Positions 8,373-58,753 of a DNA stretch of 64,000 nt are shown one piece after another. Made by a program: the position numbers and the translations under genes. The notes beneath the pieces were generated by a model. The model was not told the origin of the DNA and searched no databases. It worked only from the letters and a program-made list of their open reading frames with translations. The first letter of the stretch is position 1; the number at the start of each line of letters is the position of its first letter. The DNA comes from Hydnum rufescens UP504 (taxonomy: Eukaryota; Basidiomycota; Agaricomycetes; Cantharellales; Hydnaceae): positions 343,368 through 407,367 of the forward strand of contig MU128912.1 of the NCBI GenBank assembly GCA_014904985.1, written 5' to 3'.

Positions 8373-10353
8373 ATGTTCTCATGTACTGCCTTCACCTTTC
8401 TTCCTAACTTTCGCACCGTCAAAATCGTTAGGCTCCCCATTCCCGGCCATGAATTCTCTCGCATACATGTCTCGCCAATTCGACGCAATTGCCTCCCTCT
8501 AGCATCTTCTCCCTCCCGCCATCCATCAACCTCTTCTTCTGCTCCTCCTTCTCCGACTGCTACTAACAATATTCAAGCTACCCCCACACCACTAACTGGC
8601 TTCCGTAATCGTCGACCATCACAACCTTCACTCACTCGCCAATTGTCTTGGCCTTCCAAGAGCCCCGCTACTAGTTCTAAGGTAGCAACCTCTGCCCCTC
8701 CTGCGTTTGCCTCTCATCGAGCCTCGACGAGTCCGCGGAAACGGCGCCGACGACGGGCTGCGTCCGCTCTCCTTGCAAGACCCTTCCTAGTAATATGGCA
8801 ACTCCTCTACTCTGCATGGCTTTGGGTGTCGCGAAAGGTAGCTGAATTTAAGGAATCCACACCACATACGTCAGGTGGGGGTTCCCTTGATGCTCAAGTG
8901 GATGACCAGAGCGATGTGACCCTGGTGGATTCAGACGTGGATGATGAGGAGAATGTATCTCTGTCCCTTCAAGATTCCATGTCTTCATCTTCCTCGTCTT
9001 CGGTATCCCGTGGTCCTGAAAATGATCCTTTTTCAGCTTCAGCATCTAAGCTTTCCAGCTCGTCTTCCTCTTCTTGGACTGCTGGATCCGATAGGGTACG
9101 AATTTCAATACCCTCACTCCTTAGTCCGACCCGAGGCGAGAATGCGGATGCTGGCAGACAGTGGCGCCCTCGGGTAACGCCATATCCAAGTAAAGAGCGG
9201 ATATCTGCTGCCGACGCTGAGGAAGATGATCGTGAAGCCGATGAGCTCCGGGAACCTTTAACACCTACGCTGAATATAACATCGCCTGTGCCACGTTCTG
9301 ACCTTCCTTTACCACCGTCAGGGTTACGGTTGACTCAACCGCCTCCGCCCAGTGTTCCGTCTACTGCTTCTCCTAAATTATTGCCGAACCGGCTCGGGAC
9401 TTCATACCTTACATCCCCTTCCACCAAGACGAAGGCACCACCACGGCACGCTCCGTCACACCGACCCCAAACACCCTTCCACATGCCCAAGACGCTCGTA
9501 TTAGACCTAGACGAAACGCTCATCCACTCCACTTCTTCTCGCACGCCCCTTCCTCTGACTCCATCGGGTGGAAGGGAGAACATATTTGACTTGGGTGGGT
9601 TGTTCCTTGGTGGTGGTTTTGGCGGTGCGGGTCTTCTTGGTGCCACTCTTGGGGGCGGCCTGCTTGCCGGCACTGGCGGTCTGCTAGGTAGTAATGCCAG
9701 GGCAAGGGGAGGCCATATGGTGGAAGTTGTTCTCGGTGGGCGAAGCACGCTTTATACAGTGTATAAACGGCCGTTTGTGGATTATTTCTTGCGCAAGGTA
9801 CGTGAAGTATTTTGCGTGCGTGACTGCACGGTTTTTTTTTGTTCTTTTGTTGCTAATCTTGGGAAATTTTCTAGGTCTCCTCGTGGTATACTGTGGTCAT
9901 ATTTACGGCATCGATGCAGGAGTACGCGGATCCTGTCATAGACTGGTTGGACGCTGGACGAGGTATTTTAAGTAGAAGATTCTTCCGCGAGGTCAGCGAT
10001 TTTTCTGTCTCTGGCCTTCGTCTTTTGTCTAATTGTTTTGCCGACATCTTGTAGTCATGTACGCTGTTGCCAAATGGGACCTACGCCAAGGACTTGTCAA
10101 TTGTCGACCAGGATCTGAGTCGTGTATGCATGATCGATAATTCGCCTGTGAGCTATAGTTTTGATCAAGGTTCGTTAATCATACGATCCTGTCTTCCTAT
10201 TCTCATAACTTTGGGCATTCAGCAAACGGAATTCCCATTGAAGGATGGTACTCGGATCCGTCAGACGAAGCGCTTCTCGACCTTCTCCCCGTCCTCGATT
10301 CATTACGGTTCACCAGTGATGTGAGGCATGTCCTCGGGCTCAAGGCGTTCTGA
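8373..10353 (+). CDS. NEM1: Nem1/Dullard-like protein phosphatase
   Basis: Nem1 with Spo7 dephosphorylates the lipin Pah1 at the ER and nuclear membrane, controlling fat storage. A basic stretch (PRKRRRRR) precedes one membrane segment ([19 protein letters not shown]), then an acidic/serine linker, then the FCP1/SCP-type domain with the DxDxT motif in [13 protein letters not shown]. After it come [32 protein letters not shown] and [20 protein letters not shown]. Introns at about 9797-9874, 9992-10054 and 10170-10222 join in frame, and TGA is at 10351-10353. A Gly/Leu-rich insertion (about 9585-9690) follows the catalytic motif. The long first frame starts at 8373, but an ATG at 8449 in another frame gives [16 protein letters not shown] and would need one lost base near 8495; I think that is the ancestral start. 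Confidence 0.9.
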
Positions 10354-28300: not shown

Positions 28301-28530
28301 ATAGATGGTGGAGTTCTGTCACATGTGCTATAGAAGAAGGGTTGGGAGCTCTGATGACTGTCAAATCAAAATCTGGTTCAGCCAGTGTGTAGATGGGAGA
28401 CTGTATTTCTGTTGTTATTCATTGGGTTGGTTTGCTTCAATGGTTGATCACACTCTGCAAGATGTGTATGGTGTTCAGTGGTGAATAGGAAGGGATATGG
28501 ACTAGCTGTAGTCAATGATGTATCATCTGG

Positions 28531-28625
28531 GATGCTTGTAGAAAGGCTTATACATCTGTGATGCTTGTAGGAAGGCTTATACATTGTGTAGGATGCTTAT
28601 GGAAAGGCTTATATGTTGTTTGTGT
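28531..28625. repeat. Three tandem ~30-bp repeats
   Basis: Units beginning at 28,531, 28,560 and 28,592 share GATGCTTGTAGAAAGGCTTA with small differences and are followed by ATACAT or ATATGT. They may be part of a decayed long terminal repeat of the copia relic. Confidence 0.7.
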
Positions 28626-29879
28626 TGTGTTGGTTCATTTACTGATATTTGTGTATTCTTGTTTACATTCTCCTGGTCAAAATGTGGATATCTGTAGGTT
28701 ATAGACTGGTCAGTGCTTGGTTAGTCTTGTTAGTGTGTTTCTTTCTTCTTTCTTCAAAACCTGATACATATTTCATTATGCTTATTTTTCCTTGGATGTC
28801 CAGCAACTCTAACCTTAGGTCCTGCAACTATCCTTGGCTTTAGTGATTCATGTAGAGGGCTACCAGTGGCTTTGTCTCAACAACCTTGAAGATGACTTAG
28901 CTCATGCATAATTGGCGATAGGTGGGACTTACTATTTACATTAACCAAAGCAGTACCAGGAGACAGACCAGTTACTAATGGACCAATGAAGGCAAATTTT
29001 TCACAAGCACTGTGGAAGATAAAAGCACAGAAAATGTGAAATCCCACTTATCCCAGCCTATGGAAGGATCACATGACCAATTATCTGGCCGAAGCATATT
29101 TTTATTTGACAGTCATTGGAGCTCCCAATCCCTCTTTCATAGCACATGGTGACTTGTCATGCAGGGATAATATAAGAGTGATAACACAGATATGCTGTTG
29201 TTGCTAAAAGTTCAATAGTATATCTTGACTCTCAAGCCTCCAGAATAACATAGACCAATTAGCAATAAAAAGTTTTAAAGTATCTAGACCTCTCAAAGCC
29301 TGAAGCCTAGGAACAATTCAGAGGAATTGGCTGCTCTGTTTTTCCCCAAAGTGGACCACCTTCTTGTCCACAGTTCTTTGCAGTTTGCTTGCTCCAGACC
29401 CCCCAGAGACTCCAGACTTGGCCAGTGACCTTCCTGATGAGCATATTGCTTGTTTGGATACATGGATTCTGCACATGATACCTACAATGGTGTGTAGTCA
29501 TCAAGAATCCCTGCAAGTCTCTCTGCCACATCATATGAGCCTAGTCCATGCAAACCCCCATAACCCATCAAGTCCCTCTCAATGTGAGCCTGGAGCAAAT
29601 GAGAGATAGGCACTGTTTCAAGTGCATTGAATGGGTGTGCATTTGTCCCAGATCGAATCCAAAGGATGACCACTAGTTTAACAACCCAAAATCAGCAATC
29701 TCCTCTGCAGTTAGAATTAGTCTCAACACTGACAAGAAATAAACACCAGATATTGAATATTGATGTGTGATGGGTTAGGCAGGTGAGGCTGGGATGACTG
29801 CTTGAACATCATAGGGGGGAAATCAACAAAAAGGGAAACTAACCAACAGTTTGAGGAAGGGCACACAGGCCTTGATCCC
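28626..29879. other. CpG-poor region without a recognisable gene
   Basis: About 1.25 kb between the transposon relics and the 3' end of the microexon gene. Small open frames (for example 29307-29673, both strands) show no domain. It probably includes the 3' untranslated part of the microexon gene and more decayed transposon DNA. Confidence 0.45.
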
Positions 29880-32800
29880 CTAAATATTTGAGCACCTAAT
29901 GAAACTTAGATGAGACAGGGACATGGTTGGAGGTGAGGTTTGACAATATTTACCAAATAGAGTGAGGACACAGGGAGACAATGAGACTGCAATTATACTG
30001 AATCATTTAGGTGTGTCAATGAGATGTGACTTACAATGTCCTGGAGGAAATCCAATTCAAGGATCATAGTCAAAAGATAACATAGGATTACATTGTATAG
30101 ATCCATGCACTCACAAGCTGTATTGTCAAGGTCAGTGAAATTGGCAAGAGGCAGAAACATACACAGAATGGTAAGAGAGGAAACTTACAACCTATGAGAT
30201 GGGCATTGTGAAATACAAGATTAGCTAGAGATCATGAATCAAAGAGTGCAAGATGGAGACTGACACTCTATGGTGGAAAAGCATCAAGTAGGACATCAAC
30301 AAGCAATGGTGCACCAAATCCTAGGACATCTCAACTCACAGGCTGGATTATCAATGGCATCAAAGTGGAAATAAGCAAGGGATGATGCATTGAATCCAAT
30401 ACATTTGACTTACTGTCTACACAGTCAATGAAATCAAAAGGAGAATGAAGGAAGAGGATACATCAAATTCTAAGAGATCAGAACTTACAACCTAAGTGGT
30501 CAATGCCACCAGAAGATGAATCAGCAAGGGACAATCCATGGAATTCTGAGACATCAAGCCTTACACCCTATGTGGGAAATGGCACCAAAAGACAGGTGAA
30601 CAAGGGATGAATACATCATATGCTAGGACATCCAGACTCACAAGCTATGTTGTTAATGCCATCAAGAACTGAATCAACAAGTGACAGTCCATTAAATTCC
30701 AACACACTGAGACTTACATCCTACATTGTCAACAACACCAAAAGATTAATCAGCACAGGACAATGCATGGGATTCTAAGACTTCCAAACTTACAACCTAT
30801 GTTGTCAATGCCACCAAAAGACAAATCAGTAAGTAACAATGTATGCAATGAGCTCTACAATAGCCTGACTTACATGCTGTGTTGTCAATGCCATGAAGAG
30901 ATCAGTCAGCAAGGGACAGCCACTTGAATACTGAGCATCCAGACTTACATGCTATGTTGTCAATGCCACCAAAAAGGAATCAGCAATAGACAAAGCATTT
31001 CACACCAAGAAATGCAGCCTTACATGCTATGGTTTCAATGCCATCAAAAGATGAATTAGCATGAGACAATGCACTGATTTCCAAGACATCCAGACTCACA
31101 CTCTGCATTGGCAATTCCACCAAAAGATGATCACCAAGGGACAATTCATTGAATTGTAAGACATCCAGACTTACATTCTACACCACCAATGCCACCAGAA
31201 GATGAATTATCAAAGGACAGTCTAGTGAACTGTAAATCATCCAGACTTACAGTCTACATTGTCAATGGCATCAAAAGATGAATCAGCAAGGGCCAGTGCA
31301 CTGAATTCCAAGACATCCAGACTTACCCTCTACATTGTCAATACCATTAAAAGATTAATCAACATGAGAAAATCCACTGAATTCTAAGACATCCAGACTT
31401 ACTCGCTATGTTTCAATGCCACCATGAGATTAATCAGCAAAGGACAATTCATCAAATTCTAAGACACCCAGACTTACAAGCTATGTGGTCAATTCCACCA
31501 ATAATGAATCAGCCAGAGACAATCTACTGAATCCAAAGATACCCAGACATACACCCTAATTGCCAATGCCATGAAAAACTTAATCAGCAAGGGGCAATGT
31601 ATTGAAGTCCACATCCAGACTGACAAGCTATGTTGTGAATGCCACCAAAAGATGAATCAGTGAGTGATAGCCCATTTAATTCTAACACACCAAGACTCAC
31701 ATACTATGTTTTCAATGTGACCAAAAGATGTGTCAGCAAGGGATGATGCATGGAACCCTAAGACATCCAGACTTACACCCTATTTTTTCAATCCCATTAG
31801 ACAATAAATCAGCAAGGGACAATCTACTGAATCCTCAGACATCCAGACTGACATCCTATGTTTTCAATACCACCAAAAGATGAATCAGTAAGCGAAAATG
31901 CATTGGATTGTAAGACATCCAGGCATACATGCTATGTTGTCAATGCACCAAAAGATGAATCAGCAAGCAGCAATGCATTGAAAATTCTAAGACATACAGA
32001 CTTACATACTATGTTGTGAATACCACCAACAGATGGATCAGCAAGGGACAATCCATTGAATCCTAAGACATCCAGACTTACATGCTAGGTTGTCAATGCC
32101 ACCAACAGATGAATCAGCAAGGGACAACACATTGAATTTTAAGACACCAAGACTTACATGCTAGGTTGTCAATGCCACCAACAGATGAATCAGCAAGGGA
32201 GAATCCCTTGACTTCTAAAACATCCAGACTTACAATCTATATTTGTCAATGACACCAAGGGAGGACTCAGCAAGGGACTCCATATTCTATGACAACCAGA
32301 CTTACATGCTATGTTGTCCATGCCAACAAGAGATGAATCAACAAGGGACAATCTATTGGATTGTAAGACATCCAGACTTACAACCTATGTGGTCAATGTC
32401 ACCAAAAGATAAATCATCAAGGGACAATCCATTGAATTTTGAGATACCCAGACTTACATACTACATTGTGAATGCCACCAAAAGATGAATCAGCAAAAGA
32501 CAATGTATTGAATTCTATGGCATCCAGACTTACACCCTATGTTGTCAATGCCACCAAACAATGAATCAGCAAGAGACAATGCATTGATTTCTATGACATC
32601 CAGACTTACAACCTATGAGGTCAATGGCATCAAAAGATGGATCAGCAAGGGACAAGGTAATGAATTCCAAGATCTCCAGACTCACTCCCTAAGTGGTCAA
32701 TGCCACCAAAACATGAATCAGCAAGAGACCATTCATGGAATTTTAAGACATCCAAACTAACAACCTATGTTATCCCACCAAACAATGAATCAGCATGGAA

Positions 32801-35800
32801 CAATAACTTGAGCTTAAAGACATCCAGACTTACATCCTATGTTGTTAATGCCACCAAAACATGAATCAGCAAGGGATAGTGCATTTAATTCTAAGACATC
32901 CAGACTTACATCCTATGTTGTCATTGCCACCAAATGATGAATCAGCAAGGGTCAATTCATTGACTTGCAAGAGACTCCAGACATACAACCTATGGTGTCA
33001 GAGCCACCAAAGAATGAATCAGCACAATGCATTGAGTCCTAAGCCATCCAGACTTACATACTATGTTGTCAATGCCACCCAAAGAGGGATCAGCAAGAGA
33101 CACTCCACTGAACTCTAAGACACCCAGACTTACAAACTATGTTGCCAATGCCACCAAAGATGAATCAGCGAAGGATAGTGCATTGAATGTGAAGAAACCA
33201 AGACTTACTTTCTGTGTTGTCAATGGCATGAGAAGATAAATCAGCAAGGGATAATCCATTGAATCCTAAGATATTCAGACTTACATGCTTTGTTGTCAAT
33301 ACCACCAAATGGGGGATCAACAAGGGCCAATCCATTGAATTCTAAAACATCCAGACTTACATTCTATGTGGTCAATACCACCAAAAGATGGATCAGCAAG
33401 TCAAGAGATCCATTGAATTCTAAGACATCCAGACTTGCATGCTAGGTTGTCAATAGCACCAAAAGACAAGTTACCATGGGACAATCAAATGAGTTCTAAG
33501 ACAGTCAAACTCACAAGCTGGGTTGTCAATGCCACCAAATGATGAATCAGCAAGGGACAATGCACATTGAGCTCTAAGACATCCAGACTTGCATTCTATG
33601 TCATCAATGCCACCAGATGATGAATCAGCAAGGGGAAATCTATCAAATTTGAAGACATCCACACTTACATACTATGTTGTCAACCACCAAATCATGAATA
33701 AGCAAGGGACAATCCATTGAATTCTAAGACATCCAGACTCACACCCTATGTTGTCCAAGTCATGAAATGATGAATTAGTGAGGGACAATCCATTGAATTT
33801 TAAGACATCCAGACTTACACGCTAGGTTGTTAATGCCACCCAAAAATGAATCAGCATGAAACAATCCATTGAATTCTGAGACACCCAGACTTACAAACTA
33901 TTGTCAATACCACCAAATGATGAATCAGCCAGGGACAATGCATCCAATTCCCAAGCATCCAGACTTACATACTATGTTGTCAATGCCACCAAATAATGAA
34001 TCAGCCAGGGCCAATCCATGGAACTGTAAGCCCAGCCAGACTCACACCCTATGTTGTCAATGCCACCAAAAGGTCCATCAGCAAGGGAAAAACCATTGAA
34101 TTCTAAAATGTCCAGACTTACACCCTATTATGTTGTCAATGCCATCAAAAGATGAATTGGCAAGGGACAATGCATCAAATTTTAAGACATCCAGACTCAC
34201 ACCCTATGTTGTCCATACCACCACAGGATCAATCAACAAGGGACAGTGCATTGAATTCTAAGACCTCCAGACTTACATGCTATGTCAATGCCACCAAAAG
34301 ATGGATCAAAAAGGGAGGATGGATTGAATGCTAAAACCTCCAAACTTACAAGCTATGTTGTCAATGCCACCCAGGCATGAATCAGCAAGGGGCAATTCAT
34401 TGACTTCTAAGACAGCCAGACCCACAAACTATGTGGTCAATGCCATCAAAAGATGACTCAGCAAATGACATGCATTAAATTTTAAGACATCCAGACTTAC
34501 ATGCTATATTGCCAATGCCATAGAATCAGCATGTGACAATCCATTGAGTTCTATGACATCCAGACTTACACGCTATGTTGTCAATACCATGGGAATATGA
34601 ATAAAGAAGTGAGAATCCATTGAATTATAAAACATCCAGACTTACCTGCTATGTTGTCAATGCCAGCCAAAGCTGAATCAGTATGACAATCTGTCAAATC
34701 TCAAGACATCCAGACTTACAGGCTATGTTGCCAATGCCATCCACAGGTGAATCAACAAGGGACAATCAACTGAATTCTAAGACATCTGGACTTACATGCT
34801 AGTTTGTCCATGCCACCAATAAATGAATCAGTGAGGGACAATCCATTGAATTCTCTAAGGCATTCAGACTTGCATGCTATGTTGTCAATGTCACCAAAAC
34901 CTGAATCAGCCAGGAGCAATGCCTTGAATTCTAAGACATCCAGACTTACAAGCTATGTTGTCCATGCCACCACAACATGAATCAGCAAGGGAAAAATGGA
35001 TTGAATTCTAAGATATCCAGACTTACATCCTATGTTGTCAATGTCCCCCAAAGATGCATCAGCATGGGCTAATATGTCAAATTCCAAGCTATCTGGACTT
35101 ACTCCCTATATTGCCCATGCCACCCAAAGATGTTTCAACTGGTAACCACTCTTCTGATGGTGGATAATGTGCACTTACATCCTATAGTATTCAGGTTGAT
35201 CAGTGCAGCACCTCAAAAATCCTAAGACATCCCATCTTACCCTCTATGTTATTAATACCAAGGATAAATCAGTCAGCACTAATGTATGGAATTCAAAGAT
35301 CCAGACCCACCCTCTTGGTTCCAGGGGCCATCACACTGAATCAGGCAGAAATCCTGCATCAATCAATATGGATCTGGACTTACATACTATGGTGTTCAGG
35401 CCACCCAAATGTATATCAACCCATGGCTACTCAATGGATGGTGCTGGATACAAACTCACCACCTTACATTGTCCATGTCACCAAACAATGTATCATTCAG
35501 TGACCACACATTCAATTGAAAGAGATTTCAACATACAGTCTACATTTGGGATGCCACCAGGCAATGTATTAGCCAACACCTATATATCAAAGGGTGGGGG
35601 ATGTACTCACTTCCTAGATTGTCAAGGAAACCAGATGATCAAACCCCTGCCTCAAATTATGAGAGCTCATGGGCTCACCAGCTACATTATTGATACCATT
35701 GGTGAGACCAGCACACACTGAGTTGACAGTGGCCAGACTTACCTGCTAGATTGTCCAGTTCATTCACAATGTATCAGCCAGTGATTGTGCATCAAAGTGG

Positions 35801-38800
35801 CAGAGCTCTGAACTGACATGCTACATTATTGTCACCAGAGAATGTATTCACTTGAAATCCTGCATTCAAATAGAGGAGATCCACACTTACCTGCTACATA
35901 ATTAATGGGACCAACCAATGTATCAGAGAGTGACCATCCATTAAATTGTGCAATCCAGCCTTACTTCCTTCATTGTCCATGTCACAGAAAGAAGTATGAG
36001 TCTGCACCCATATATTGCACTGGAAGAGAACCAGACTTACCTCCTACATTGTCCATGTCACCCAAAGACATATTAGCCAACAATAGACCAAATACTCAGA
36101 AATTCAGACTGACATTCTATGTTGTCAGTGCCACCAGTGGATGTATCAGCCCAGCAGCCACCCATTAATGGTGCAAGCCATGTACATACTTCCTATATTG
36201 CCAATTCCACCCAGGAAGGTATCAGCCAGCACTCACACATCAAACTGGGAGCTATCCAGACTTACATTCTACATTGTCAATGGCATTGAAAAATGTATCA
36301 GCTAGGCACAAATGATAGTGGGGGATAAGGACCCACCTCCTACATTGTGAATGCCACCAGCTGATGTATCAGCAGTGAGCCTGCATCAAGTTGTAAGAGA
36401 AGTAGCCCACCAGCTACAGGGTGAATGCCACCAAAGAGATGGATCAGCCAATGATCAGGCACAAAATTGAAAGCCAACTGACATTCTTAATTGTTGAGGC
36501 CATCCAGTGATGTGTCAGCCAGTGATGGTGCATCAAAGTGGAGGAGATCCAGACTTACATGCTATATTATCAGTGTTATCCAACAATGTATTAGCCAGTG
36601 ACCCCACATCAAATTAGAGAACCAAACTTACAGCCTGTGGTGTCTATGCCAAGGAAGAGATATCAGTCTGCCCATGTACATCAAAATGTAAGAGATCCAG
36701 GCTTACTTTCTACAGTAACCATGCCACCAGATGATGGATTAATCACTGGCTATGTGCTAGCCTATAGGAAGTTCCAACTTACATACTACATTATCCACAT
36801 CACCAAATGATGCATTGGCCAACCACCACCCATGAAAGCTAGGAGATGTGGACTGACCTCCTATTTTATCCATCCCACATAATGATGTATCAACCATGGA
36901 CCTCATATTGAATCCACACTTACATACTACAATGTGAATGTCAACAAAAGATTTGTCAACCAGTACCCATCAAATTCCAAGACATCTGGACATACAAGCT
37001 ATGTTGTTGATGCCACCAAAAGATATATAAGTCAGTCATAATACATTGAATGGCAGGGAAAGCTAACCCACATCCTGGGTTCATATCACCAAATGTTCTA
37101 TCAGTTTGTGACCTCTCAAAACTGTGACAGGTCCAGTCATACCTCCTATGTCATTGATGTCACCAAGGCATATATTAGTAGGTAACAGTGTAGATCTGAA
37201 GGTCAGATATTCATACTTACAAGCTATGTTATCCATGCCATCACAATACAACTCAGTGACCTGACATCAACTAAGAGACATGGACTCACTCCCTGTGTTA
37301 TGGATTCCAACAGAAGCTGGTTCAGGGAATGGCCATGCATGGAATCACAGGTGATCTGGACTCACATACTGTGTTCCCAGTGGCACCAAAAAATGTTTCA
37401 GCCATGTATTCAAATTGGCAATTTCCAGACTGACCAACTAATTGACAGCACCACAAAGAGACACATAAGCCTGTGGTTGCACACCAAATGCAAACATTTG
37501 GAACCATACCTCCTATGTTATTAGGACCATCCAATGAACAAATGTGTCATATTGTCAGAACCAGTGTTGCAGTTTTGGCATATGATACCATCAGTAGCTT
37601 AAGTGTTGTGAAAGTGACACATTCACTCACCATGAGAATCCTGAAACCCTTATTTGCCCACAGCTCGGATTCTTCATCTTGCACAATTGGTTGGGCTCTT
37701 GCCACAATATTCCCTGAACATAGTCAAATAGTACCATAATCTTATTGATACAGCTTGAAACTGGACCTTCAATTACACCATCAAGGACACTATGAGATAA
37801 TTGTTAGTCACTATCGATCCATTGGACATCCACACTCACCGCTTCAAAACACTTATGGTATGAATCCGGCGGTTTCTTTTCCGAACCGTGAGGCCAAGCA
37901 GTGATCTCTGGGTCTCATGGGGAAGAGCATCCATCGTGACTCGAAGAAGTCGGTCGCATAATATTCCACTCTGATTGCTAGCTTCACCCATGTCTTTAAG
38001 CCATAGAATTAAGTGTCAAAATTGCTACTCAGATACAGTATACATACCTCCAACCCTGATGAAATCAGCAGGTGGGTACCGCTCCTTCCGAAACCGTGTC
38101 TCGAGTGCATTGACAAATTCCGTTACCTTCTGATCCACCTCACTGGCACGATCAATGAAATCAGAAGGGGTGGCAGCAGGGCCTAGAACCTCCATCTCCA
38201 CTTTTGTTCTTCTTCCATCTAACTTGGTGAAAATCCCAATAATAGGCACTGAAGGGATGCATGGACCAGAGTGCAACGGATAGTGTCGAATGCCACGAGT
38301 GATAGGACATACCTGATGCTGTGGATTCGGAGAGAAACCCTGACTGCAGGAATCCAAAGGGCCTGTCATTATCTGTTGGAATGCAGAGCCTGTAGCAATT
38401 GATGGTCAAAGTATGACGAGCTGTGAACTACATGGGTGAACGCACCAAATCGCGTGCAACTGTTGGGAAGGCGATGCCAACGAACGCTTTCGAATAAATT
38501 TCCAGACGGCCTCGACCTCCTTGACCCCTCCCGCTTCGAAACCACCAGAGTCATGGAAAACGAATGCCGGGTATGATGCGTAAGCGATTTCGTCCTCGAT
38601 ATTGTGGGACCCTCGCTAGAGTGTGAAAGCATCGAGCAACCGCAGTGCACCTTTACTAGGATGGCGCTTACTCGATCGCTTCCTATGGGGACGTCCTGGA
38701 CCTGGGATGAAGGGATTAATTAGACCAGCATTTCTACTGAGTTCGAAGATCTAGAGCAATTACATGTCTTCCGTTCCGAGTCACTATGCCCGCGCCGGTA

Positions 38801-38922
38801 GGGCTGTCTGTTAGTCGCTCGAGCAGAGTGGTCTTTCCTGCGTTTGCCGGTCCCAGTATAAGGACCCTGAAGCGCCTGGCTTTGTTGGTGGCTGTAAGAT
38901 GCTCGTGGATATATTTCCACAT
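29880..38922 (-). CDS. G-domain GTPase-like gene running through the microexon array
   Basis: The first part is a small GTPase-like protein of the Agaricomycete 'G domain-containing' family. The start MWKYIHEHL (ATG at 38922) is followed by the P-loop in LILGPANAGKTTLLERL, HNIEDE, the DxxG-like segment FVFHDSGGFEAGG and the G4-like motif IGIFTKLDG. Exons down to 37840-37993 splice in frame, and exon 37631-37789 (159 nt, RVLDGVIEGPVS...) ends two bases into a codon. From its donor about 100 single-codon exons follow (37512 to about 30115). Next come exons GACATT (6 nt, near 30035), a 33-nt exon ending about 29919, and a last exon that, in the same phase, ends at TAG 29880-29882. If the phase differed the stop would be at 29775-29777. 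The GTPase part is firm; the continuation through the array is inference from splice signals. Confidence 0.6.
30034..37512 (-). repeat. Array of ~100 intron-plus-one-codon units (76-77 nt)
   Basis: Read on the minus strand, each unit has a donor (mostly GTAAGT or GTGAGT, also GTATGT, GTCAGT, GTGGGT), usually followed by CTGGATGTC in the regular half. A CTGAT or CTAAT branch-like word lies about 30 nt before the acceptor, the ac/taCATAG-type acceptor follows, and then exactly three bases come before the next donor. I followed about 68 regular units (30,115-35,178) and 32 more diverged ones (35,239-37,512). In all of them an AG, three bases, then GT (or GC in three: about 33,437, 33,592 and 34,873) can be seen. 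The triplets vary widely (about 25 kinds, e.g. CAT, CTT, GGT, GAG, TAT, AAA, CAG) and none is a stop codon. On the plus strand the array only yields short chance frames. Confidence 0.93.
37790..37839 (-). other. 50-nt GTPase intron resembling the array unit
   Basis: This last ordinary intron of the GTPase gene begins GTGAGTGTGGATGTCCAATG. The regular array unit begins GTAAGTCTGGATGTC and carries AATGGAT a few bases later. It also has a branch-like GTGACTAAC and ends CTCATAG. It could be the ancestor, or a shortened sister, of the array units. Confidence 0.6.
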
Positions 38923-43754: not shown

Positions 43755-45169
43755 ATGGATCCGCCTGACTCTCCTGCATCTAAAACAACCCGACCATTAC
43801 CACCGCCGTCCTCGTCTCCTATGGATCAGTCCCTCCCACCATCGAAGAAACCCCGCCTTCAACGGGAAGAGAGCGATATCCTTCCGCCATCTTCGGCCGG
43901 GGATGGAGAGGAGGACCCGGGGTCTGTTCTATCTCATATAAAAACTAAGAAACGATCTAAGAAACAAAGAAAACTCGCCGCTACCTCCTTGGCCGCCGCG
44001 AAGAAATCCGTTGACACTGCCGGTGCAATAGTCGATGTCTCAGACGCTGGTATGGAGACGGAAACAGATGGAAATCGTAACACTGGCAGACCGACTCATG
44101 GCTGGAGAGCAATTGAGGACGACAGTAGCTCGGGGGAGTTCGCGGGACTGACAAAGCTCCAACGTGAAATGAAGCAAAAACTGAGCGGTGGAAAATTCAG
44201 GTCTGTAGTAATTCTGAAAATTTGGCCTGTTGTCACTACGAAGCACTAATTTGTCTTCCTCACACGTTAGGATGATCAACGAACTCTTGTACAAATCTGA
44301 TAGTGCAGGCGCGCACGAGATGATGAGAAAGAACCCTACTATGTACAACGAGGTGCGCTAATTGGGTTGTACTGAATGGGTATCGCTTACGAGGGTGAGA
44401 ACCCTGTACAAGTATCACGCCGGATTCAGAAACCAAGTTGTCTCGTGGCCTACTAATCCAGTGTCGTATTACACGTCAATCATTTCTTCATACCCTCAAA
44501 CGACAGTCGTTGCCGACCTTGGATGCGGAGATGCTGCTTTAGCCAAGAACTTGGTGCCACAGGGGGTCCGGGTCCTCTCATTTGATCTTGTCTCGGACGG
44601 CGAATGGGTGGTAGAAGCCGACATTTGTGATCGAATCCCCCTTCCTGGAAAGGACGATGGCAAACAGGCACAGGTGGTGGACATCGTCGTGTGCGCTCTG
44701 AGCTTGATGAATCTGAATTGGATAAGGTGTATTCGAGAGGCACGTCGTATACTCAAGATAGGGCATGTGGCTGTCATCTTCCTCATATCATGGCTAGGAA
44801 CTGATCCGATGGATTCCTTCAGAGGTGAACTTAAGATTGCGGAGGTCTCTAGCCGATTCAATGATGTGAAAGCATTCCAGGCGGTCATATGTTCTATCGG
44901 GTTTGACTTCCTATCCAAGGCAGGTTATGAGTAGATTGTTGACCAAGTGCATGTATTGACTCTGAGACTTGATCTGATAGGAAGAACCTAGCACGCATTT
45001 TGTACTCTTTGAATTCCGGAAGGCCTCGCGCTCACGACCGTTCTCGAAAAAAGAGTGGGGAGTCGTGGAAGGGAAGCGAAGGATCTGCTTAGTCCATGCG
45101 AGTACAAGCGACGGTAGTTGTAACCCTAACCTCGCCCAAAATGGCACAATATTACTCCCCGTCGCGTGA
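43755..45169 (+). CDS. RRP8: 25S rRNA adenine-N1 methyltransferase Rrp8
   Basis: Rrp8 methylates one adenine of the large-subunit rRNA in the nucleolus. It starts MDPPDSPASKTT (ATG at 43755), followed by a basic, disordered N-terminus (KTKKRSKKQRK). GLTKLQREMKQKLSGGKFR then leads into RMINELLYKSDS, YHAGFRNQVVSWPTNPV, the SAM site VVADLGCGDAALA, FDLVS and ADICDRIPLP, CALSLMNLNW, EARRILKIGG and FVLFEFRKA. Exons splice in frame through GT-AG introns near 44200-44271 and 44352-44410. Two further introns must start with GC (44759 GCATGT and about 44931 GCAGGT) to keep the frame. TGA is at 45167-45169; 73 bp later the hexokinase gene starts on the same strand. Confidence 0.93.
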
Positions 45170-45242: not shown

Positions 45243-47477
45243 ATGCCAGTAGTTCCCAGTCCAAACGAGTCAGCTATCCCTACTGCGACGCTGCGCGCGT
45301 TGTACGAGATCGAGCAGGACTTCCACCTCGACGCCACAAAGCTACATTCGATCTTAGAACACTTTGTCGCTGATTTGGGGACTGGTCTGGGTAAATATGG
45401 CCACGGGATGGCGATGGTGACATTATCCTAGTCATCTAGTGCCCATATGTCTGCGTACTCATACCCAAACAATTAGGTTCCTACATTCGTGACTGGTGTC
45501 CCAACAGGCAAGGAAACTGGGTTAGCATGAATATATGCGTGCGCTTAATGACCCCCCATTTATCTCTGGAAATTCTGTAATACAGGACTTTCCTCGCACT
45601 TGATCTTGGTGGTACAAATCTGTATGTGAGGTCAACCAGCACAGGGTAAGATGTCGCCAACCAATTTACCGACATCAGGCGTGTATGCGAGGTGAAACTA
45701 GATGGGAATCATACGTTCCAATTACGGCAGCAAAAGTACAAGGTGTCTGACGACCTCAAGACAGGCGATGCCAAGTTTCTGTTTGGTTAGTGAATGCACT
45801 CTAGCCGCTCACCTTCTCTCTAAATCCCAATATCTTTCCCATCTTCATATATTCATGCAGATTACATGGCGGATAGCGTCGATGCCTTCCTCACGCAGAC
45901 GGATACGGAAATCGGGGATGAAGATTCTCTGAAACTGGGCTTTACATTCAGCTTTCCGTTGAGCAGACCGCGCTGGATAAGGGTACCTTGCTCACTTGGA
46001 CCAAGGGCTTCTCTGCCACGAATGCTCAGGGGAAAGATGTTGTCAAGATGCTCCAGGACGCCCTCGACCGTAAACATTTGCACGTCAAGTGTGTCGCACT
46101 TGTAAATGATGTATGTGCACCCTCCTTCCCTCCGAACAAGTCTTAAGGCTGCATCGTTTTAAAGACCGTGGGGACGTTATTGTCTCGATCTTACCTCGTC
46201 GGCGATTGTCTCTTGGGATGCATTTTCGGGACGGGGACCAACGCCGCATATCTGGATGATGCATCCACCTTTACTAAGTCGAATGATATTGCCTCTCAAG
46301 GTGGGAAGATGATCGTAAACACAGAATGGGGCGCATTTGACAATGAGGTATGGTGGTAGGGTGTCCATCGATAGTCATTCAACACTCATTTCAGGGACCT
46401 CACTCTCGTAGAGAATCGTACTTCCATTCACCGAGTACGATAACAAAGTCGATCGGGAAAGTATAAACCCGTAAGTCCTGAGACCCTGATTATGCCTCGT
46501 AAGGGATAATCCAAATTATTTTGCGTTTTGAAGTCGCTTCCAGGCATTTGAGAAATTTATTTCTGGAATGTGTGAGTATGCATGCGATCTCTGGCCGTGC
46601 TTCTCCCAAAATTTATCACTTATCCCTGTCTACAGATCAGGGCGAGGTCGTGCGCAACGTTATCCGTGAGTCTGCATTCCTTCTGATAGCAAGGATGAGA
46701 ATTCACACTTAACCTATGGTTCAAAACCCCCCACAGTCCACCTCATAGATAAAAATCTCCTCTTTCGAGGCTACTCTACCCCAGAATTGAACGCGCATTA
46801 TGGCTTCGACACAAGTTTCATGGTGTGTCTTCTCCCCTTCCTTCGTTATTTCTTTCTCAAGTATCACAATGTTACTCAGTCCGAGCTCGAGCCGAGAACG
46901 CCCGTACCCCGGAATTCTACACCCGAGCAAGAAAGGTGTTCATCGAAAAGCTCGGATTTTCCAAATATACTGGTCCAAACTCAAGTGGACGCGGGGCAGT
47001 CAAATTCGAAATCACCGACGCAGACTGCGAGATCACGAGACGGGTGTGCGAGACGGTGGCTACGCGGGCGGCGAGGCTGAGCGCTATTGGTATCGCGGCT
47101 GTAGTGCAAAAGACGGAAGTGGCGAAGAAGACTGAGGGTAATATCCAGGTCGGCGTTGATGGCAGGTGGGTGTATTTTATCGTTTGGATAAGGAATGGCT
47201 CTCTGACAAGGACATTTTGTGCAGTATGGCCGAACATTATCCTTATTTCGAGGTGCGTGTACGTGAGGCTCTGCGTGTTGTCCTCGGCCATGAGGTCGAG
47301 CAGCGCATCAAAATTGGGATGGCGAAAGACGGTAGCGGTGTCGGTGGTTAGTGGTCTTTGATACATTCCGACCTGTCATGGGTTTATGATTGCACTCATC
47401 ATCCCTATCTTATCCTAGCCGCCCTTGGTGCGCTCCAAGCCCTGAAGGCTGCTGAGATCACGGAACCGGCGACATAG
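45243..47477 (+). CDS. HXK: Hexokinase (two frameshifts)
   Basis: Phosphorylates glucose with ATP, the first step of glycolysis. The start is MPVVPSPNESAIPT at 45243. Motifs in order: FLALDLGGTNLR (phosphate loop), DDLKTGDAKFLFDYMA, LGFTFSFP, LLTWTKGFSATN, CVALVND, CIFGTGTNAAYL, VNTEWGAFDNE, LPFTEYD, FEKFISGMY, LLFRGYSTPEL, CETVATRAARLSAIGIAAV and GMAKDGSGVGAALGAL. About 12 introns splice in frame, and TAG is at 47475-47477. Two single-base losses break the frame: near 45955 (after FTFSFP; CCC to CC) and near 46890 (start of the exon following DTSFM). Length is otherwise typical (about 490 aa). As elsewhere in this window I cannot tell error from mutation. Confidence 0.92.
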
Positions 47478-57506: not shown

Positions 57507-58753
57507 ATGGCGTCACGGACGCTGTCTTCCTCTGTCCTGCGAATAGCACGGTGTCCACGTACTAAACTATTTAAAGGCTGTCGTTCTGTGCACAGCATTC
57601 CCCAATTTTTCCCACCCAATCGACAGAGGGTTAGGCGATTTTCTCTCTCCGGCTGCACTCCATACAATCGCCGTCGAGTACCAAGGGGGTTTGCTTGCTC
57701 GATTAAACGAATTGGTTGCAGGTGGGCTCTCCTGAGTACGATTTTTCTGCTCCAAAGGATTTATTTGTCCGCAGGAACACGTCTGGAGCATGAGAGTGTG
57801 GCTTCAGACTGTTATTAGCTCTGCGACGGATGCCGATCTTGCTCTGACTTTTAACGTTGCAAGTCAGGCCCTTAATAATAGTTCTTTCTGGATAATCTCG
57901 TGAGTAATTATCTATCATGCTAAGAATATGTGCCAATTGACACGGTGTTCTCTTTGCCAGAAACCTCCTCCAGCCGAGCCGCTCCTTGATGAGGATGACA
58001 AGCCAATTATTGGGCACGAAAATTTTCTCGGTTCCTCTCTTAAGACTGAAATCGTGGCAAATTTTGGTTCTGTGGAACAGTTGAAATCCACCGTGAGCGC
58101 AGCAGCGATGGGTATGATGGGCTCTGGCTGGATATGGGTTGTGATGGACCAACAGAAGCATATGGGTGTCGTGCCTACGTATGGAGCGGGGACTTTGCTT
58201 GTCCGATCTCGTTTACAGCGCACGCCTCGGTCGTACGTTATTGGCGCCCGAAGCAAGTCGCGCGCAGACAATTATAACCCCACTCTTTCACGGCGATCAT
58301 CATCCCCGGGATCCACGTCAGTACCGCCCACTGATTCATCGTCCGGTACAGCTGCATCCCATCCACTCGCTAAGAACATCCCGCCCACGCGAAATTCTCC
58401 GGATTCAACGCGAAGCTACTCTACACAGACGGGCCCAAAAAAAATATTTCTCGTTCGCGGTCTACCGTTGCTGATGCCCGCGACATGTACGAAAGCGGCT
58501 CCAGGATCCCATCCTCTTCTGCCTCAAATCCATACGGCCGCAATACGACCATGATAAGTCCAAGCTATGCGCTGAAAAATCTCTTCCTCGTCGGGGCTCA
58601 ACTCTCCCCTCTCTTCTGCGTGTCCGTGCACGAACATGCATGGATACTGGATTATGGGTACAGGGGAAGCAGGAGTACCTTGCACGGTTCTGGAACGCGT
58701 TGGACTGGGAGCGCGTGGTAGAAAACTTTGAGTATTTTACAAAGAGGCCTTGA
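57507..58753 (+). CDS. Mitoribosomal small-subunit protein mS42-like (several frameshifts)
   Basis: A protein of the mitochondrial small ribosomal subunit with the Fe/Mn superoxide-dismutase fold (Rsm26/Mrp1 type, catalytically dead). It starts MASRTLSSSVLRIARCP (ATG at 57507), a typical mitochondrial import sequence. Then come GLGDFLSPAALHTIAVEYQG and GLLARLNELVAG, QTVISSATDADLALTFNVAS and QALNNSSFW. After an intron: IVANFGSVEQLKSTVSAAAM, GSGWIWVVMDQ and VVPTYGAGTLLV, then an unconserved linker. The end is PLFCVSVHEHAWILDYG and KQEYLARFWNALDWERVVEN. TGA is at 58751-58753. Four one-base indels break the frame, near 57606-57610 (T run), 57802, 57891 and 58655-58658 (G run); the linker also changes frame at 58240-58480. 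This is more than any neighbour shows. Confidence 0.82.

Follow-up and report, generated by a model that had tools for sequence, protein, structure and literature searches.

A tail-coding array of a predicted GTPase gene in Hydnum rufescens, likely spliced as 100 three-nucleotide exons

The hedgehog mushroom, Hydnum rufescens (Cantharellales), carries a tandem array on the minus strand of a 64,000-nucleotide stretch of its genome (the window; positions 343,368 to 407,367 of contig MU128912.1, assembly GCA_014904985.1), which is part of a 618,593-base contig of the 63-Mb genome of strain UP504. In all likelihood this array encodes the tail of a predicted GTPase and is spliced as 100 three-nucleotide exons: ordinary GT-AG introns of about 73 nt (three of them GC-AG) would be removed around 100 lone codons. 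The original prediction, made from the letters alone, was that splicing joins about 100 single-codon exons in a GTPase gene, and it is supported by the matches of two public protein records, P0121 and P0006. Beyond what had been predicted, the array was found to belong to a family whose members have a region of diversified codons.

The chain of triplets and its joined form in protein records

The chain of AG-NNN-G(T/C) units is unbroken from 37,512 to 30,115 (triplet 1 at 37,512-37,510, triplet 100 at 30,117-30,115), and the spacing from acceptor to next donor is three bases in all 100 units. The 99 introns between the micro-exons are 59-77 nt long, exactly 73 nt in 45 of them, and the donors of the array are GT in 97 cases and GC in three. 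The original prediction of about 100 units without exception to the 3-nt spacing, and of three GC donors with GT in the remainder, was borne out by these counts. With GT donors only (AG-NNN-GT, steps of 60-85), the longest chain was 44 units, because GC donors and short units interrupt it; the maximum in Markov shuffles (n = 50) was 3.

The 3-nt length was also recovered when exon length was left free between 0 and 12 nt. Eighteen array sources were studied (17 fetched arrays and the window); 17 of them entered this search, L041 being left out as it is without a chain of 15 introns. In the single best-scoring chain of each source, which is not the whole array (the share of the window is 29 exons), 508 of 526 exons were 3 nt long. 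The 18 others came from L049 (eight), L044 (six), L043 (three) and L050 (one).

Searches with the predicted protein, a profile of the tail and a profile of the variable part led to short JGI protein records. P0121 (207 amino acids, 983-nt contig) is identical at 207 of 207 residues to predicted spliced units 29-100 followed by the five downstream exons; it covers 72 consecutive micro-exons, all three GC-donor introns included. P0006 (219 amino acids, 936-nt contig) joins the GTPase exons to units 1-30 (30/30). It contains three extra residues, TPQ, at codon 13, which are explained by an acceptor nine bases upstream in the window, and its end, VSPDPY, is the exact genomic read-through of the intron after unit 30. 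Its GTPase part differs from the window by eight substitutions and a four-residue gap ahead of the tail; P0006 therefore comes from a relative.

Joined micro-exon codons of this gene or of paralogs were found in 12 JGI records, with 4 to 72 codons each: P0006 (30), P0025 (4), P0029 (28), P0123 (28), P0121 (72), P0122 (42), P0130 (11), P0134 (9), P0135 (8), P0136 (4), P0139 (4) and P0142 (20). P0029 and P0123 represent one gene, since they are identical over their overlap. The 42 codons of P0122 were counted by analogy with locus L054, 32 of them lying in blocks common to both, and the 20 codons of P0142 are units 50-69 of L051. The gene thus shows what defines a micro-exon gene, a long run of exons of a few nucleotides spliced into mRNA, given records that presumably originate from RNA.

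The gene model has 113 exons (eight on the GTPase side, 100 micro-exons and five end exons) and 1,605 nt including the stop codon, for 534 amino acids; the gene occupies 9,630 bases, of which 8,025 are intron. Exons 1 and 2 and most of exon 3 were placed by likeness to relatives. The features are, in the direction of the gene:

38764..38922, minus strand: exon 1, start codon and P-loop GPANAGKT (gene model; likeness to BS47DRAFT models)
38672..38701, minus strand: exon 2 (likeness to relatives)
38446..38615, minus strand: exon 3, G3 motif DSGG (gene model; exon end joined in P0006)
38313..38389, minus strand: exon 4 (joined in P0006)
38048..38248, minus strand: exon 5, G4 motif TKLD (joined in P0006)
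37840..37993, minus strand: exon 6 (joined in P0006)
37767..37789, minus strand: exon 7, 23 nt (joined in P0006)
37631..37713, minus strand: exon 8, ending in ...FRILM, phase 0, donor at 37,630 (joined in P0006)
35103..37512, minus strand: micro-exons 1-34 with the intervening introns; shared tail part, common to paralogs (ELYG..EYK..NLE..LETVYRRDG); units 1-30 joined in P0006
36635..36643, minus strand: nine bases of the alternative acceptor, ACACCACAG, before codon 13 (T-P-Q before A; P0006 compared with the window)
35363..35383, minus strand: start of the intron retained after unit 30 (VSPDPY, then stop; P0006)
30115..35029, minus strand: micro-exons 35-100 with the intervening introns; variable codons specific to the locus, most of them NNT (P0121 joins units 29-100, 72/72)
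30035..30040, minus strand: 6-nt exon, DI (P0121)
29844..29879, minus strand: 36-nt exon, GIKACVPFLKLL (P0121)
29734..29788, minus strand: 55-nt exon, PHLPNPSHINIQYLVFIS (P0121)
29486..29672, minus strand: 187-nt exon (P0121)
29293..29416, minus strand: final exon of the P0121 isoform, including the stop codon (P0121)

The border between shared tail and variable codons, at units 34-35, was placed by eye. As predicted, the array starts at the donor of a GTPase exon (37,630); the exon that had been drawn from 37,631 to 37,789 is in fact two, 37,789-37,767 and 37,713-37,631, separated by a 53-nt intron and joined in P0006. Normal exons do lie downstream of the array, where short exons had been expected at about 29,880-30,036, and their coordinates were corrected from P0121. 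If the last intron is not removed, the 187-nt exon 29486..29672 is followed by an immediate TAG, a form found at the end of several family records. A GTPase ending at the TGA at 37,629-37,627, with a separate gene starting from the ATG at 37,633-37,631, was considered and rejected, because P0006 joins GTPase and tail via exons 7 and 8 in one frame.

The predicted protein belongs to the P-loop GTPases (a 'G domain-containing' Agaricomycete family), with homologs down to 1e-114. GPANAGKT, DSGG and TKLD were picked by eye in the window model as what we take to be motifs G1, G3 and G4. Judged by eye, the start of the model (MWKYIHEHLTATNKARRFRVLILGPANAGKT) has the P-loop and is without a hydrophobic leader. 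The relative P0003 matched the Pfam family Arf with 22.7 bits (cut-off 22.3); a Pfam scan of P0006 (a fragment), P0121 and P0122 gave no match. Some GTPase relatives (P0007, P0013, P0015 and P0028) have an N-terminal repeat, for example EVPDEEVPDE, ahead of the G domain, which makes a second repeat-driven variable part in the GTPase family.

Coding tests and alternative readings of the array

The array could be a non-coding satellite with the look of introns, either untranscribed or removed in one 7.5-kb splice, with triplets that are spacers. It is a tandem repeat with at least 1,047 unit matches in the genome, and the public family models examined are compatible with such a view: P0001, P0003, P0005 and P0007 end at the array or read into its first intron, and P0015 takes in one or two array codons. 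This is extremely improbable, as the triplets are joined in order in P0121 and P0006 and as stop codons are avoided. The stop, variable-part, lag and kinship analyses were made on 12 of the 18 sources (the window, L040, L042, L045-L048 and L050-L054); the other six (L039, L041, L043, L044, L049 and L055) were excluded because they have gaps, broken spacers or block repeats. In the longest chain of each locus (the second L050 chain, with a stop at its start, is outside this count), phase 0 contains one stop in 827 triplets, compared with 18.1 +/- 3.4 expected when third bases were shuffled within loci; none of 5,000 shuffles had one stop or fewer. Phase 2 contains 149 stops in 815 codons and phase 1 only two in 815. 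Phase 1 being nearly open, the test cannot separate phases 0 and 1, and phase 0 is therefore set by the records.

It was also considered that a related genome contains an intronless retrocopy from which the joined records derive, the array being its decaying, intron-laden sister. In favour of this, the records are shown without a sample type, and P0006 belongs to a relative. Searches of the UP504 genome with P0121 residues 1-85 and with P0006 past residue 180 revealed no intronless copy (no match at E 0.001 in either case), and P0121 is the window locus itself. Furthermore, different records keep different single introns at the predicted places, which argues for partial splicing and not for an intronless gene. 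Five joined records end in the read-through of one intron, with 6/6, 10/10, 22/22, 21/22 and 19/22 residues as predicted; P0122 starts inside a retained intron before N, and P0142 inside the retained intron before L051 unit 50 (5/6 residues), later introns being removed in both. A retrocopy is hence a very improbable source of the records.

Several observations weigh against the splicing of the array into 100 codons. None of the records covers the full 100 units, and we infer that the joined JGI records are translated transcripts. In eleven of the 12, all but P0121, some piece is retained or oddly joined; fully spliced molecules may for this reason be a minority outcome. The end of P0130 matches the read-through at only 4/6 residues, and P0029 and P0123 end in DSRYHID, which matches it at 1/7; this end might be accounted for by a jump over two units onto an AG that lies within a donor. 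Among the other arrays, spacers that are 1, 2 or 4 nt long occur together with broken frames in L041, L043, L044 and L049; one L050 chain contains a TAA, and another begins with a stop. Triplets of the shared tail are as different between paralogs as the introns (identity 0.81 for triplets, 0.83 for introns), and the differences comprise 678 non-synonymous and 74 synonymous changes; judged from these sequences, and leaving the stop and spacing tests aside, the shared tail appears to be without sign of purifying selection. The conservation of the triplet string among paralogs was accordingly dropped as a coding proof, because introns at matching positions are equally conserved.

The last six residues of the P0029/P0123 end resemble an L045 intron read in another frame, perhaps through an alternative acceptor inside a donor.

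The same retained introns may point to a mainly regulatory array, in which most transcripts keep an intron and end early, so that the amount of full-length protein is tuned. Unspliced or odd pieces in 11 of 12 records, retention after codon 4 in three of them and the fact that any one intron kept gives a stop or a frameshift in 95 of 99 cases are in keeping with this. P0121, P0122 and P0142, on the other hand, run through variable stretches, and neither the avoidance of stops nor a non-random choice of codons (chi-square 47.8, p 2.7e-7, with some expected cells below 5) would be needed by a pure brake. The figure of 11 in 12 may also mislead, since short open pieces are picked up preferentially when records are searched by protein similarity. 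A mainly regulatory role is unlikely; it is compatible with splicing of the array as single codons and does not exclude it.

A family of arrays and the diversification of their codons

The listed genome matches of the array unit lie in at least 29 places, spread over 25 contigs. The shared end exon was found in 41 places including the window (its listing of 45 rows includes two extra window rows and two rows of another exon). Family members are laid out as a shared tail, a locus-specific variable part and a shared end: among the 18 sources, the start of the shared tail (ELYG...) was seen in 13 and the shared end (ESM, ASM or PEDL) in 10, and where both are visible the variable part is about 17 to 70 codons long. 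L044 and L055 have neither in their 3-nt chains. The array starts directly after the same GTPase exon end in 11 of the 18 sources, this point not being visible in the other seven.

L041, L043, L044, L049 and L050 are either dead copies or assembly errors. Intron indels are frequent in the first four, alongside the aberrant spacers, and the L043 array carries a TAA. Just before position 3,072 of L044 (contig C2), the upstream stretch resembles, by eye, a retrotransposon integrase, and this array may have been cut by an insertion.

Within arrays, codons are far more different than the introns around them. In 1,717 pairs of units whose ungapped introns are at least 95% alike, intron sites differ at 2.9%, compared with 66% for codon position 1, 68% for position 2 and 7% for position 3. 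Of 373 units, 338 have T as their third base. At positions 1 and 2, the diversity of codons is 0.54-0.74 in L040 and L050, where intron divergence is about 5%, and 0.70-0.73 in the window, where it is 24%; over the 12 loci, the correlation of codon with intron divergence is weakly positive (0.33 and 0.41). Among the variable codons, those for His, Gly, Asp and Val are common, and those for Ser, Cys, Thr and Ile are scarce.

Variable codons were compared in 78 pairs made from these 12 arrays and P0122, the ends of the stretches being picked by eye. They could not be aligned in any of the 15 pairs of six close paralogs (z -1.6 to 1.3), four of which (L042, L045, L048 and L053) have shared-tail introns that are 94-97% alike. 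L054 and P0122 were alignable (z 8.3). The picture is of codons that are renewed as a locus grows its array and are stable later. Constant hypermutation of codons was rejected, since codons are kept in P0121 (72/72), in P0142 (20/20 with L051) and between P0122 and L054.

Three explanations were weighed. Strong diversifying selection after plain duplication of units, with introns alike by descent, is plausible at somewhat less than even probability. It agrees with the saturation of positions 1 and 2 only, with the scarcity of Ser, Cys, Thr and Ile codons, with codons that are stable between relatives and with the weak correlation over loci. In L055 (contig C47, 42-9,440), moreover, whole blocks are duplicated, codons included (two copies each of DDPDSDHHDDYPHDHR and YYYYYYLPY.PGY); these copied blocks speak against a rewriting of codons at every duplication. 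Selection would, however, have to act at an extreme rate to saturate two positions at 2.9% intron difference, codon levels are similar at 5% and 24% intron divergence, and kinship of introns is barely tied to identity of triplets: the latter was 11-12% for units sharing no rare intron variant, 11-15% for those sharing one and 19-25% for those sharing two (16 pairs).

Alternatively, introns may be homogenised with intron precision: a local master copy would overwrite them in place and leave the older codons as they were. Each locus has its own intron consensus, and intron variation is star-like: variants are mostly rare, with more singletons than expected under neutrality in all 11 loci that have at least 15 units (L051, with 13 units, is not in this table, and introns that are not 73 nt or are at least 25% from consensus were dropped). 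Distance has little effect, the intron mismatch being 5.7% at lag 1 and about 6% farther away, so that neighbours are barely more similar (pairs of equal intron length and less than 15% mismatch). Homogenisation in this form is doubtful, as the codons of close paralogs are unalignable despite the likeness of their shared-tail introns, which implies that the codons were renewed too.

The third explanation, rather less likely than not, is a codon-by-codon diversity engine: the array would be grown anew at each locus from units born with positions 1 and 2 rewritten, intron and third T being copied faithfully, and splicing would yield a stop-free peptide library on a GTPase. Diversity-generating retroelements and NNT codon libraries have two random codon positions and a fixed third base that excludes stops. 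The NNT codons of Hydnum resemble NNT libraries in this stop-excluding third base. Intron adenines are conserved, which speaks against the adenine-specific change of a diversity-generating retroelement. Short-tract gene conversion with edges blurred at the codons was rejected, as there was no rise of entropy in introns near the triplet (the adjoining AG and G being invariant through the way units were selected).

Proposed splicing of single codons and comparison with known systems

A three-letter exon is too short for splicing factors to sit on both of its sides simultaneously. Splicing of the array would proceed by intron definition: each short intron, with its own donor, branch site and acceptor, would be excised separately. 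The introns being self-contained, exon size is irrelevant if neighbouring introns are removed one after another; once one intron is gone, the next donor lies at the end of a long exon, and the 3-nt size is no hindrance. The introns need not be removed strictly from 5' to 3', since P0122 and P0142 each retain an intron while lacking at least 19 that come later; the pattern is thus not that of strict 5'-to-3' recursive (ratchet) splicing.

In the product, the G domain would be followed by an acidic tail common to paralogs and by the variable stretch, in which His, Gly, Asp and Val abound; the end, again shared, would include a short hydrophobic segment. As a unit is a whole codon in phase 0 plus an intron, gain or loss of units alters single residues and never the frame, and the third base fixed as T excludes stops. 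From this pattern we would guess that the variable stretch is an easily diversified surface for recognition (self/non-self or defence).

If the 100 triplets are indeed exons, about 100 consecutive three-letter exons would be a new extreme for the spliceosome, and the 72 micro-exons of P0121 would have been joined without error. A tandem satellite could then be a coding region overlooked by public gene models, and the array would offer a test system for the recognition of tiny exons and for the uncoupling of codon diversity from the surrounding sequence.

The original prediction knew of no long uninterrupted run of 3-nt exons, and a search of the literature, with subscription journals mostly outside reach, likewise turned up no such run or comparable gene. 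Trichoderma Xlr2 reportedly has a microexon. Exons of 1 nt are described in Fusarium CYP621A (PMC12940212) and in plant APC11/VPS55 (PMC8831610). As in Hydnum, spliceosomes, fungal ones too, include exons of one to a few nucleotides in these cases, but, as far as the accessible accounts go, each gene has a single isolated microexon.

Micro-exon genes of Schistosoma have 10-20 short exons of mixed size (3-81 bp) and introns that range from 100 bp to nearly 5,000 bp (PMC10526429). They share with the Hydnum array many very short exons and a family poorly traced by automatic annotation, whereas the accessible part of that paper mentions no equal run of single-codon exons in a tandem intron repeat. 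In aphid megacycle, over 100 microexons encode about 2,000 amino acids, hence about 20 codons per exon, and internal exons of bicycle genes are in phase 2 almost throughout (PMC9168663). According to the available text, these genes, like the Hydnum family, are fast-evolving; the Hydnum exons differ in having one codon each and in being in phase 0.

The Hydnum introns have a counterpart in their repetition. Introner-like elements are said to be near-identical short introns in many copies. Introners are described, in the part of the source available, as near-identical short introns in many copies spread over many genes (PMC9860276). The Hydnum introns share the first three properties, but they lie head-to-tail with one codon between them and, where the start of the array is visible, in one gene family. 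HYP effectors have, like the Hydnum arrays, a hyper-variable central domain with pieces that vary in number and order; in the accessible text, their variation is motif-wise and allelic, while that of Hydnum concerns single intron-framed codons and is seen among paralogs (PMC11228951). As to allelic variation of this kind, one Hydnum genome was compared, and P0121 is identical to the window.

Downstream of the gene, at 28,524-28,613 of the window, there is a 29-30-nt tandem repeat in three copies. Pfam identified ordinary pieces in the neighbourhood: a NIF-type phosphatase (8,373-9,941), a Methyltransf_8 methyltransferase (44,362-44,934), a hexokinase (46,825-47,361) and an Fe/Mn superoxide dismutase (57,928-58,554).

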